32,348 nt of DNA from Thermoplasmata archaeon (GTDB lineage: Archaea > Thermoplasmatota > Thermoplasmata > Lutacidiplasmatales > UBA184), in assembly GCA_021790425.1 (NCBI GenBank), contig JAJYEA010000021.1:1-32348 (forward strand), in the 5' to 3' direction. The notes beneath the pieces were generated by a model, which saw nothing but the letters and a program-made list of their open reading frames with translations, made no database searches and had not been told where the DNA came from. The position numbers and the translations under genes are program-made. Of this stretch, positions 7,876 to 25,599 are shown piece by piece (the first letter of the stretch is position 1; each line of letters opens with the position of its first letter).

Positions 7876-8592
7876 CTAGCCCGCCAGTTCGTTCAGCAAG
7901 GTTCGCATCAGGAAGCCGGTGGCGAGGCAGGTTGCGAACACCGAAATCTTGGCCGGGTGGCTCTCTATGGTGACCGTCCGAGAACGGACCCATCCCCGGA
8001 TGACCGGTTGGCCGTGGCCGAGAACGATGAACTTTCCGGTGACCGTTTCGACGATCGTGAAGTCCGTACCTTCGTAGAGGATGTGCGAGGGTCCGAAGGA
8101 GTTGGTTTCGGTCTTCCAGCGGCTCAATCCTGATTCGATCAAGATGTTGTCTTCCGAGAACTGATAGGATACCGTTGCAATCGGCGTCTCCTCCTCCGCC
8201 CGGAAGATCCGATACCGGGTCGAGTAGAGACTGGAAGACGCGTAGACGGGCCCACATAGGTCCGAAGGGCTCGGTATTGCCCGCCACGGGGTCCGGCCGA
8301 CATCAATCCGGAAGACCCGCTTCGGCAAGTCCGCGATGGCCACGATCTCGGGGCCCGCGGGTATGCTGACCGCGTCGGCCACCGGTGAGCGAAGGGTGGC
8401 GAGACGGGAAGGGGTTGCGTAGGGTCGGTCAAAACGGACCGTGCATGCCTCCCCGACGGCGGAGGAGGCCATGTACTCTGACCAGAGTGAACGCAAGAGC
8501 CCGCAGTCCGGACATTTTGCGGAGTCGACGCCGGCGTCCGTCCCGCAAAGAGGGCACCGATGGGTCCCCGTTTCCAAATGGTCAGAGGACAT
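7876..8592 (-). CDS. Zinc-ribbon protein with a possible tubby/LURP-one-like C-terminal domain
   Basis: A 238-residue protein. Residues 13-30 form a zinc ribbon with CPLCG and CPDCG pairs (C13, C16, C27, C30). Residues 45-100 are variable. Residues 120-235 alternate short beta strands and end in a hydrophobic helix (about 214-235), which resembles the tubby-like/LURP-one/scramblase fold; this is a shape-based guess without a diagnostic motif. The ATG at 8592 lies inside the last codons of the HTH_10 regulator, an 11-bp overlap that indicates translational coupling. The pair is probably one transcript, so this protein may work with or be controlled by the regulator. Base composition of the pair looks slightly less G+C-rich than the flanking housekeeping genes. 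Confidence 0.6.
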   Translation of the reverse strand: MSSDHLETGTHRCPLCGTDAGVDSAKCPDCGLLRSLWSEYMASSAVGEACTVRFDRPYATPSRLATLRSPVADAVSIPAGPEIVAIADLPKRVFRIDVGRTPWRAIPSPSDLCGPVYASSSLYSTRYRIFRAEEETPIATVSYQFSEDNILIESGLSRWKTETNSFGPSHILYEGTDFTIVETVTGKFIVLGHGQPVIRGWVRSRTVTIESHPAKISVFATCLATGFLMRTLLNELAG

Positions 8593-9307
8593 CGGGGTTC
8601 ATCCCCTCCTTCATGATCTTTCTCTCGACCGTAGCGAGCGTCTCCGAGAGGGAGGACTTCGAGAGTCGCAGCACATGCGCAAGCTCGGTCATGGTGGTCC
8701 GTCTAGGAGTGTCCCAGTACCCCGCGGATCGGGCTATGCGGTAGATCTCCGCCTGTCGTGCGGTTAGGGTCGGGTTTCCCCGTCGGGACCGGTTGCAGTT
8801 GGTCCAAATTGTCCGGACCGTGAACTCCTGCTTCTCGGATTTGAGTTCGCCAATGAGACGCTGGGCCTTGTCCCTCGGTGCTTCGACTTGAATGAGTTCC
8901 GTGTTACCTTCCATCATCAACGGGAAGGAAGGGGGTATCTCGACCTTCTGGAGAATTTCCATCAACGGGCAGTGGTCTCTCGCCAAGCGCAGGGTCATGC
9001 CTCCCTTCCCACTCTCAAGAACGGTGATGAGGCCCCTTTGTAGGAGCGCCATCACGGTGGTCTTTTGCACCTCGTCCGAGAAGTCGCCGCTCAACCGAAC
9101 ATCCTCCAGGAAGAGGCCGTGGCCCAGGGGGAAGACTCGGAGTACCTTCACATGCACGTGGGGGAATGCGCTTGCAATGGCCCCGGCGGGGCATCCGTCA
9201 GGCGCTCTCACGCCCAGACCCATGACAATGACCGCTCCTTCGTGCTCCAGCTCGGTCAGCGGGGTCCCAAGACGGGGTTGGGGCTGGTGGTCCAGATCAG
9301 AAGACAT
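8582..9307 (-). CDS. HTH_10 (bacterio-opsin activator-type) transcriptional regulator
   Basis: About 241 residues. The C-terminal 50 residues are a typical HTH_10 domain: LTARQAEIYRIARSAGYWDTPRRTTMTELA, then LRLSKSSLSETLATVE as the recognition-helix region. The N-terminal 180 residues are a mixed alpha/beta sensor region of unknown ligand, as in haloarchaeal Bat-type regulators. The start is either ATG 9307 or the in-frame ATG 9328; neither has a close TATA box. An 18-bp perfect inverted repeat at 9341-9358 sits just upstream, and another palindromic cluster lies at 9517-9556. Both contain CCGAAC/GTTCGG half-sites, which suggests autoregulation. The stop overlaps the start of the zinc-ribbon gene. 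The domain resembles that of the second regulator at 24756. Confidence 0.8.
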   Translation of the reverse strand: MSSDLDHQPQPRLGTPLTELEHEGAVIVMGLGVRAPDGCPAGAIASAFPHVHVKVLRVFPLGHGLFLEDVRLSGDFSDEVQKTTVMALLQRGLITVLESGKGGMTLRLARDHCPLMEILQKVEIPPSFPLMMEGNTELIQVEAPRDKAQRLIGELKSEKQEFTVRTIWTNCNRSRRGNPTLTARQAEIYRIARSAGYWDTPRRTTMTELAHVLRLSKSSLSETLATVERKIMKEGMNPDVL

Positions 9308-9340
9308 CGGGTACCACCGTACGACCATGTCCGGCGCATC

Positions 9341-9358
9341 CGTTCGGAACTCCGAACG
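9341..9358. promoter_or_regulatory. 18-bp inverted repeat upstream of the HTH_10 regulator
   Basis: CGTTCGGA-AC-TCCGAACG is a perfect palindrome with 8-bp arms and a 2-bp centre. It lies 13 bp upstream of the possible ATG at 9328. The half-site GTTCGG/CCGAAC recurs in the cluster at 9517-9556. It is a good candidate operator; the binding protein is unknown. Confidence 0.5.
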
Positions 9359-9484
9359 CCACGGCAGCGACCTCGCGGGGGCTCTCCGACCCCTTCTCGC
9401 ACCTGCGGCTCCGGCGTGGCGGGGCCAACTCCAGCAGGGGGGATCGGAGGATGCCGAGGGAACCGTCGGGGCGCTCCATAGTGA

Positions 9485-9492
9485 TAGTATTC
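9485..9492 (-). promoter_or_regulatory. Possible TATA element for the regulator operon
   Basis: GAATACTA on the minus strand is the only AT-rich element in the 289-bp space upstream of the regulator. It would give a leader of about 155 nt. The match to a TATA consensus is weak. Confidence 0.25.
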
Positions 9493-9516
9493 ACATGCTG
9501 CTACGTCAATTCTGTG

Positions 9517-9556
9517 CCGAACCCGGTAGGCGAACATGTGAGCCGAACATGTTCGG
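9517..9556. promoter_or_regulatory. Cluster of phased CGAAC sites ending in a 14-bp palindrome
   Basis: CGAAC occurs at 9518, 9531 and 9544, exactly 13 bp apart. The last copy forms the left arm of the perfect palindrome CCGAACATGTTCGG (9543-9556). The second copy (CGAACATGTG) nearly repeats its core. The cluster lies just upstream of the possible TATA element for the HTH_10 operon and downstream of the GT4 gene. The remainder of 9329-9617 holds no convincing gene. Confidence 0.5.
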
Positions 9557-9617
9557 GTATGTCGCTGGCAGGCGGTTGGGACGCCAGGAGGACGTAAAAG
9601 GGCCCTCGCCCGGCTCG

Positions 9618-10739
9618 TTAGGTCGACTTGACCGCTTCACCGTAGGCTTCGAGGTAGCGGTCCACGACGGCATCCCACTCCCAGGACCGGGAGGCCGTCC
9701 GTGCCTTGAGGCCCATCTCCCGACACAACCCCTCGTTCCGGACGAGCTCGACGAGGTGTGACCGGAACTCCTCCTCCGTCCGCGCGACGCGACCGCCTCC
9801 TTCCCGCGACAGGGCGCGGGCCGCACCCACGTCGAAGGAAACGAACGGAAGACCGGAGGCCATCGCCTCCACGAGGCTGATCCCGAACCCCTCGTACTGC
9901 GCTCCCAGCGCATAGAGGTCGGATTCCCGATAGGCGGAGACCACCTCGGCCCGGTTGAGCGCCCCGAGGAACTTGACCTCCACTCCCAGTCGCGATGCTT
10001 GGGTGGCCACATGGGTCTGGTCCGAGGCAGACCCGGGAACGTCGCGTCCCACGACGACGAGGGATGCCAGGTCCTTGACCGGTTCGAGGGCGCTCACCAG
10101 TCGGTCGACCCTCTTGTTCGGCCAGAGCCCCCCCACGTACAGGACCAGGACCGGGCGGCTCACCCCCCACCGCTCCCGGAGGCGAAGGGGCGGGGACGGG
10201 TGTGAGAAATCCTTGAGGTCGATCCCTTCTCCCACCACTCGCACCTTGTCCTGAGGGTACCCGAAGCGGGTGATCCTTCCCGCTTCCCCCTCCGTGAGGG
10301 CTAGGTAGGCCTGGAACGCGCGCAGGCGGAAGGGGAGGTAGCGGCCGAAGTAGAGGCGGTTCAGCGGAGAAGGGTCCATCGCCAGCTGGTAGAAGTCGTG
10401 CGGGGTGATCACCTGGGGTCCGCCGAAGACCTCCGCCACCGGGAAGTAGAAGTCCGCACACCAGATCCGGTTCCCGCTCATGTGGAGCAGGTCGTAGTCG
10501 AGAGAACGCAGCGCGTGCCAGTATCCCGAGGGGATCCGGAAGCCGCCCACCCGACGCATGGGGATCCTACGCACCTCGATGCCGTCCAGGATCTCCAGGC
10601 CGGGCACGCCCGGCTCGGACTGGGTGAGGACCGTGACCTTGTTCCCGCGACGATGCAGAGCCTGCGCCAGTCCCAGCGTCCATCGCTCGGTCCCCCCTTC
10701 CGCCGGAAAGAAGCGGTGATTGACCAAGAGGACGTGCAT
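9618..10739 (-). CDS. GT4-family glycosyltransferase
   Basis: A 373-residue GT-B enzyme. The N-terminal domain opens with HVLLVNHRFFPAEGGTERW, the usual GT4 acceptor-side glycine-rich start. The C-terminal domain has VLYVGGLWPNKRVDRLV, the KFLGAL strand, and the EX7E-like stretch YEGFGISLVEAMASGLP, which binds the nucleotide-sugar. It should transfer a sugar from an NDP donor with retention, in the cytoplasm. It is transcribed away from the other glycosyltransferases, but a divergent region of 284 bp links it to the locus. The ATG at 10739 has a CCAAAAGCC element about 45 nt upstream; no strong TATA is seen. Donor and acceptor are unknown. Confidence 0.88.
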   Translation of the reverse strand: MHVLLVNHRFFPAEGGTERWTLGLAQALHRRGNKVTVLTQSEPGVPGLEILDGIEVRRIPMRRVGGFRIPSGYWHALRSLDYDLLHMSGNRIWCADFYFPVAEVFGGPQVITPHDFYQLAMDPSPLNRLYFGRYLPFRLRAFQAYLALTEGEAGRITRFGYPQDKVRVVGEGIDLKDFSHPSPPLRLRERWGVSRPVLVLYVGGLWPNKRVDRLVSALEPVKDLASLVVVGRDVPGSASDQTHVATQASRLGVEVKFLGALNRAEVVSAYRESDLYALGAQYEGFGISLVEAMASGLPFVSFDVGAARALSREGGGRVARTEEEFRSHLVELVRNEGLCREMGLKARTASRSWEWDAVVDRYLEAYGEAVKST

Positions 10740-24755: not shown

Positions 24756-25466
24756 TCAGGCGGGCTCCTGCGAGACTTCGTGCAGGAGACGGTTCTCGAT
24801 CGTCGCGAGGGACTCCGAGAGGGCGGACTTCGATATCTGAAGGACCTCGGAAAGCTCCTGGAGGGAGGTGCGGCGAGGAACATCCCAGTACCCCGCCGAT
24901 AGCGCCCTCTGGAAGATCTTGCGTTGCCGATCCGTGAGCACGCTCTTGGGGGAAAGCGCACGCTCGTGGCGAATGGACACCATCCTGGCCTCCGGTGAGA
25001 GCTTGCGGAGCCGGGCGAAAAGTCGACCGATGTCTCTCCGGGAGGCGACGACCGTGACGTGGACCACGCCTTGGTCGAAGACACACGGGAACCGGAGCAT
25101 GATCTCGAGTTCCCGGAAGATGGTCGTGAAGGGTGTCGGCTTCAAGATCACTCGGAACACGGCCGAGTTCTCGGACCGTTCCAGGATCTCGACGGACCGC
25201 ACATTCGGCCCCCGCCGGATCTCGTTCGCAAGGGCCTCGCGGTCGAACAGGCCCTTGACGGTGTTGTCCTCCATCACGAGGTTGCCGTCCAAGATCATGC
25301 GGCTCATCGTGACAAAATGGAGGTCCGGATGGTTCCGGGCGACATGCCCGTGCCACGTGGGATAATCTTCCCCCATGGGAACGGTCATCCTACAGATCAG
25401 GACATCGGAGGATGCCCCTTCTTCGGGCTCCCCTTCCTTGACGGGATCCTCTTGATTCATGCGCAT
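24756..25466 (-). CDS. HTH_10 (bacterio-opsin activator-type) transcriptional regulator
   Basis: About 236 residues. The C-terminal HTH_10 domain reads LTDRQRKIFQRALSAGYWDVPRRTSLQELS then LQISKSALSESLATIENRL. The N-terminal part is a mixed alpha/beta region of unknown ligand. The layout and the AGYWD-PRRT motif match the regulator at 8582, so the two are paralogues. Starts at 25466 and 25460 are both possible; the AAATACA element at 25494-25501 favours them over the longer frame from 25544. It is divergent from the small membrane-protein gene at 25600 and may control it. Confidence 0.82.
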   Translation of the reverse strand: MRMNQEDPVKEGEPEEGASSDVLICRMTVPMGEDYPTWHGHVARNHPDLHFVTMSRMILDGNLVMEDNTVKGLFDREALANEIRRGPNVRSVEILERSENSAVFRVILKPTPFTTIFRELEIMLRFPCVFDQGVVHVTVVASRRDIGRLFARLRKLSPEARMVSIRHERALSPKSVLTDRQRKIFQRALSAGYWDVPRRTSLQELSEVLQISKSALSESLATIENRLLHEVSQEPA

Positions 25467-25493
25467 CAGAGTTACGGCCCGATTACTGTTCAC

Positions 25494-25501
25494 TTGTATT
25501 T
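25494..25501 (-). promoter_or_regulatory. TATA-like box for the second HTH_10 regulator
   Basis: AAATACA on the minus strand is centred about 32 nt upstream of the ATG at 25466, in the divergent space 25467-25599. Confidence 0.4.
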
Positions 25502-25599
25502 GAACGCGAGCATGAGTTCGAAAGCGGACTTTGGCATGATTCAACTCAGATATCGGGCGACTGGGTGCTCCTTATCACCTTCCATAGCTTCGGGTAGAC

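Follow-up and report, generated by a model that had tools for sequence, protein, structure and literature searches.

Results

An array of three units upstream of the HTH_10 operon

The window, that is, the whole stretch of 32,348 nucleotides analysed here, carries a 40-bp element flanked by two minus-strand genes, a glycosyltransferase gene that stops at 9618 and an HTH_10 regulator gene that starts at 9328. The element is composed of three 14-bp units in 13-bp steps and is read towards the HTH_10 gene. The features of the locus are as follows.

9543..9556, minus strand: unit 1, the perfect palindrome CCGAACATGTTCGG; outermost from the promoter, with no mismatch to CCGWACNNGTWCGG at all four orthologues
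9530..9543, minus strand: unit 2, GCTCACATGTTCGC, offset by 13 bp; of the three, it varies most between species
9517..9530, minus strand: unit 3, CCTACCGGGTTCGG, offset by 26 bp; most related promoters retain its GTWCGG end
9484..9491, minus strand: TATA-like A+T-rich stretch AATACTAT, 25 bp past unit 3, at the A+T peak over 11 sites
9329..9465, minus strand: putative 5' leader from the expected transcription start to the HTH_10 ATG, placed by the TATA-like stretch and approximate in its limits
8582..9328, minus strand: HTH_10 regulator (PF04967), 248 aa, operon gene 1 and proposed binder; mean pLDDT of the model 83
7876..8592, minus strand: zinc-ribbon-like protein, 238 aa, operon gene 2, with an 11-bp overlap with gene 1; the Zn-ribbon match is weak and below the cut-off

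The earlier note had described CGAAC at 9518, 9531 and 9544 with an exact spacing of 13 bp, the last copy building a perfect 14-bp palindrome, and the coordinates bear this out: the copies occupy 9518-9522, 9531-9535 and 9544-9548, and the palindrome spans 9543-9556. The true repeat unit exceeds CGAAC and consists of 14 bp (9517-9530, 9530-9543 and 9543-9556), with an overlap of one base between neighbours. On the minus strand, CCGAACATGTTCGG is followed by 13 bp with a GTTCGC end, 13 bp with a GTTCGG end, 25 bp and then AATACTAT, which places the palindrome approximately 52 bp from the TATA-like box. The 13-bp step corresponds to about 1.24 helical turns; since this is not a whole number of turns, the units are evenly spaced but do not lie on one face of the helix, and adjacent units face different ways.

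A search of the 2,495,854-base (2.5-Mb) assembly, as had been proposed, returned the 14-mer CCGAACATGTTCGG a single time, and the 12-bp core CGAACATGTTCG has eight one-mismatch places elsewhere in the same genome (flanks read by eye). Exact matches to CGAAC-N8-CGAAC in the window are confined to the two overlapping places within the element, and its loose form with up to two mismatches is at background (58 places vs 50 expected).

The stretch at 9484-9491 probably acts as a TATA box, and the transcription start would be positioned accordingly. A short open frame (MERPDGSLG..., 9297-9494, minus strand) overlaps both the putative leader and the beginning of the HTH_10 gene; its ATG at 9479 precedes the expected transcription start, which makes translation of this frame doubtful. 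The window holds a second HTH_10 gene (24759-25571, minus strand) without the element, the best upstream palindrome having three mismatches.

Conservation and specificity across Thermoplasmata

The element is found upstream of the HTH_10 orthologue in all four Thermoplasmata species that have one (G000, the genome of the window, and G001, G002 and G004), which answers the question of conservation in relatives raised by the earlier note, and upstream of 0 of the 22 other HTH_10 frames examined. The four orthologues show 0 mismatches to the palindrome pattern and 0 or 1 to the full pattern, against at least two and at least five, respectively, in the 22 other frames. Upstream DNA was thus read for 26 HTH_10 frames (two of the 22 non-orthologues with a short upstream region, three from other genera); HTH_10 matches total 65 across the five genomes of the genus, so that these frames cover a minority of the paralogues. 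The remaining species of the genus, G003, lacks both an exact site and an HTH_10 match of orthologue grade (best E 2.7e-22).

The same architecture was present upstream of the best HTH_10 homologues in G002 and G004, and G001 was added by pattern search. A DNA search with 9329-9620 against 103 genomes of the family matched four, including the own genome; outside the own genome, G004 alone matched on the element, at a different gene than HTH_10, and the two further outside matches align to other parts of the query. Across the 103 genomes of the family, the strict pattern CCGWACNNGTWCGG-N20-GTWCGG, derived from some of the sites concerned, has seven exact matches, confined to G000, G001, G002 and G004. 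Of these, G002 C45:28709, G002 C59 and G001 C217 were discovered by the pattern itself, and those of the close relatives G001 and G002 are not independent of each other. In 400 genomes of the class the same seven were found and none elsewhere, so that the motif is not at background frequency; a background frequency is what the earlier note had named as refuting its reading. A reversed control pattern gave 0 matches. With one mismatch allowed, eight matches appeared in other genera of the family set.

Looser patterns were less selective. CGAACATG-N5-CGAACATG with up to one mismatch has five places in the 103 genomes, one of them in G016, and with up to three mismatches it returned many weak matches alongside the real sites. 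Two-mismatch matches to the 40-bp pattern lie at G002 C2 and G003 C39 (flanks read only); three-mismatch matches in G000 (C31, C36, C13) were set aside, their flanks looking by eye like coding DNA. In a broad collection of genome contigs, the pattern matched 27 stretches, 3 archaeal (sites already known) and 24 non-archaeal. Seven Saccharibacteria records (L141, L144, L151, L157, L159, L160 and L161) match a 39-base pattern exactly, perhaps through a common coding stretch.

Spacing of the units and distance to the promoter

Across four sites outside the window, the highest means for GTWCGG are 1.0, 0.92 and 0.71, at offsets 0, 26 and 13 respectively, over a background of 0.29 (sd 0.15); the +26 unit is independent of how these sites were discovered, while the +13 unit belonged to the CGAACATG-N5-CGAACATG search pattern. 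Over 11 sites, a set that excludes the near-copies in G001, the A+T content peaks at position 66 (66-68) at 0.70, compared with a mean of 0.41 (sd 0.07). Poorer fits were seen on the Peptidase_A4 side of G002 C4 and G001 C21, where there is no clear TATA-like box, and at the small-protein sites of G004 C48 and C27, which deviate from the promoter layout.

Genes next to other copies of the element

In G001, G002 and G004, copies of the element lie upstream of small-protein genes and also between divergent small-protein and Peptidase_A4 genes, and G004 has a copy upstream of a zinc-ribbon gene. The Peptidase_A4 assignment rests on a Pfam match of the G002 protein (48.1 bits); the cut fragment in G004 has no Pfam match and was assigned by 59% identity to the G002 protein. 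Given that the zinc-ribbon gene of G000 is inside the HTH_10 operon, both of the full-length zinc-ribbon genes that match best, those of G000 and G004, are under the element. No Peptidase_A4 of the element-linked kind was found in G000 or G003, and a model search for the small protein gave no match in G000. With its one exact site, G000 shows no regulon beyond the HTH_10/zinc-ribbon operon.

At two loci, L081 (G004) and L126 (G002), the element-linked small-protein gene is followed by a UbiA-like prenyltransferase and a GGGP-synthase-like gene, named by sequence appearance. A second small ORF starting MFGDP is located near the small-protein gene in G004 (L080) and G001 (L129), between it and a convergent HTH_10 gene, and the letters MFGDP also occur in the upstream sequence of G002 (L083).

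The HTH_10 protein

PF04967 matches residues 188-240 of the protein encoded at 8582-9328 with 51.4 bits (cut-off 23.1). This is its sole Pfam match at E 0.01, with no PAS or GAF domain, as in the short Bat-like proteins of the NarO/DmsR type, and the protein is homologous over most of its length to short haloarchaeal HTH proteins (approximately 24-31% identity). In the predicted model, residues 183-248 resemble a LuxR/GerE HTH domain (Z about 6), and the N-terminal part comes closest to Thermoplasma Ta1207 (5m86; Z 9.4, a modest value, rmsd 3.6, 139 aligned). By our own reading of strand and helix order in the model, the N-terminal part would consist of two ferredoxin-like repeats in tandem, which possibly bind a ligand. 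A sequence search of the PDB returned nothing relevant, Foldseek by itself gave weak matches only for the model, and a single-protein search of the broad genome-contig collection found no match. For redox sensing, NarO has conserved cysteines in its N-terminal part. The window protein has three cysteines, which are not common to both the G002 and G004 orthologues in the alignment, and redox sensing of the NarO type is therefore not indicated.

Haloarchaeal homologues

A search of plasmid proteins with the HTH_10 protein matched 109 records. From 40 listed matches, eight loci (L175-L182) were picked before their DNA was viewed. Several of these homologues lie beside nirK, nosZ, halocyanin or cbb3 oxidase genes, DUF2249 and radical SAM genes are also among the neighbours, and in many cases the palindrome is found upstream. 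Palindromes with up to two mismatches number 48 in the eight loci (some in coding DNA) vs about 2.8 from block shuffles. In five of the seven homologues with an annotated start, one of them from Halorussus halophilus with the exact palindrome, such a site lies 38-48 bp before the ATG; the other two have no palindrome within 100 bp, and the eighth locus, which lacks annotation and was read by eye, is outside this count. The 13-bp phasing does not recur in these loci, as offsets 13 and 26 are at background (15 sites).

Discussion

On the observed sequence, uniqueness, conservation and spacing of the element and its linkage to the regulator gene, we consider it quite probable that 9517-9556 is an operator through which an HTH_10 regulator of the NarO/DmsR kind controls itself along with a small regulon, and that this operator takes a three-unit form with a fixed promoter distance. 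The claim of the earlier note that regulatory sites lie at the promoter of the HTH_10/zinc-ribbon operon is thereby well supported, the pattern being rare and conserved at all orthologues. The HTH_10 protein of the window, as the likely binder, would most likely occupy the three units as dimers, perhaps in a cooperative manner, and act on the promoter from a fixed distance, with the array ending 25 bp before the TATA-like box. It would thereby control its own operon and, in the sister species, also a few small-protein genes, a Peptidase_A4 and a zinc-ribbon gene. A dimeric regulator, as suggested earlier, would suit both the palindrome and a C-terminal fold predicted to be LuxR/GerE-like; the phasing does not place adjacent units in the same orientation. 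On our best reading, the three-unit form at a fixed promoter distance is new, and the simpler haloarchaeal form is already known.

That the element arose by chance, as a palindrome and short repeat between genes, or that it forms an RNA hairpin or terminator behind the glycosyltransferase gene, has practically no weight left. The loose CGAAC repeat is indeed at background in the window, and the element does follow the glycosyltransferase stop, but its conservation at genes with differing upstream neighbours already contradicts this explanation, and neither chance nor a terminator accounts for the rarity and the fixed spacing to the TATA-like box. It is also distinctly unlikely that a real operator is bound by another factor, either an HTH_10 paralogue or an unrelated protein, with the HTH_10 gene merely one of its targets. 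The many HTH_10 matches in the genus would provide candidates, and in the accessible part of PMC11218638, which also places the motif at a bacterio-opsin-activator gene of Haloferax mediterranei, the protein that binds this core is called undisclosed. The element, however, tracks the orthologue group and is absent from the other HTH_10 genes examined, and haloarchaeal homologues, too, carry the palindrome at their own promoters.

Whether binding activates or represses is a separate matter, as the sign is not fixed by sequence. Self-control is often negative, and the site might be a repressor operator at which binding shuts off the operon and the further targets. We regard this as unlikely, given that the array lies upstream of the TATA-like box and leaves the core promoter free, a position that suggests activation. 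The accessible text of PMC10062603 also argues against repression, since mutation of the motif in H. mediterranei significantly lowered the activity of the nos and nor promoters; the drop at nir was non-significant and at nar there was none. A further-reaching and very unlikely extension would have HTH_10 dimers placed side by side at 13-bp intervals, with a rotation of roughly a quarter turn from one to the next, in a short helical arrangement; from a fixed 25 bp before the TATA-like box, the last unit would recruit basal factors. Together with the small proteins, the secreted Peptidase_A4 and the LuxR-like regulator, this would amount to peptide-linked signalling in Thermoplasmata, grown from the operator that serves anaerobic respiration in haloarchaea.

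Two archaeal lineages have the same 12 bp at the promoter of the regulator itself, which provides a defined site, a candidate protein and a small target set, so that binding and specificity are directly testable. For archaeal HTH_10 regulators, the accessible literature describes few operators, and a phased array at a fixed distance from the core promoter would be a clean case for the action of an archaeal regulator on TBP and TFB. We found no paper on such an array in Thermoplasmata within a coverage that excludes most subscription journals. The string CGAACATGTTCG also turns up in work on p53.

Bacterial regulators of the LuxR/GerE/NarL type bind short inverted repeats as dimers, and their HTH domain resembles the modelled C-terminal part of the window protein, whereas the predicted N-terminal part differs in being closest to Thermoplasma Ta1207. 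The consensus of the bop UAS, ACCcnactagTTnGG, has CC, AC, GTT and GG in common with the palindrome. As far as the accessible part of PMC1447603 goes, the Bat activator of Halobacterium resembles the system described here in its kind of HTH and in having its site upstream of the bop promoter. In contrast to the window protein, for which Pfam finds HTH_10 only, Bat carries PAS and GAF domains according to the available portions of PMC1447603 and PMC11218638.

A close likeness is to the haloarchaeal denitrification motif CGAAYATDKTYG (nirK, nor, nosZ), which is tied to NarO/Bat-like HTH_10 regulators and has the palindrome sequence in common with the element; according to the accessible text, the motif at the nos and nor promoters of H. 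mediterranei has exactly the sequence of the 12-bp core. The haloarchaeal targets are denitrification genes, whereas none of these was seen among the genes adjoining the known Thermoplasmata sites, which are not denitrification-like in appearance. In both systems, judging from the available parts of the haloarchaeal reports, the motif stands at the promoters of the regulators themselves, but haloarchaea use a single palindrome near the start codon, and the Thermoplasmata element consists of three phased units that end 25 bp before a TATA-like box.
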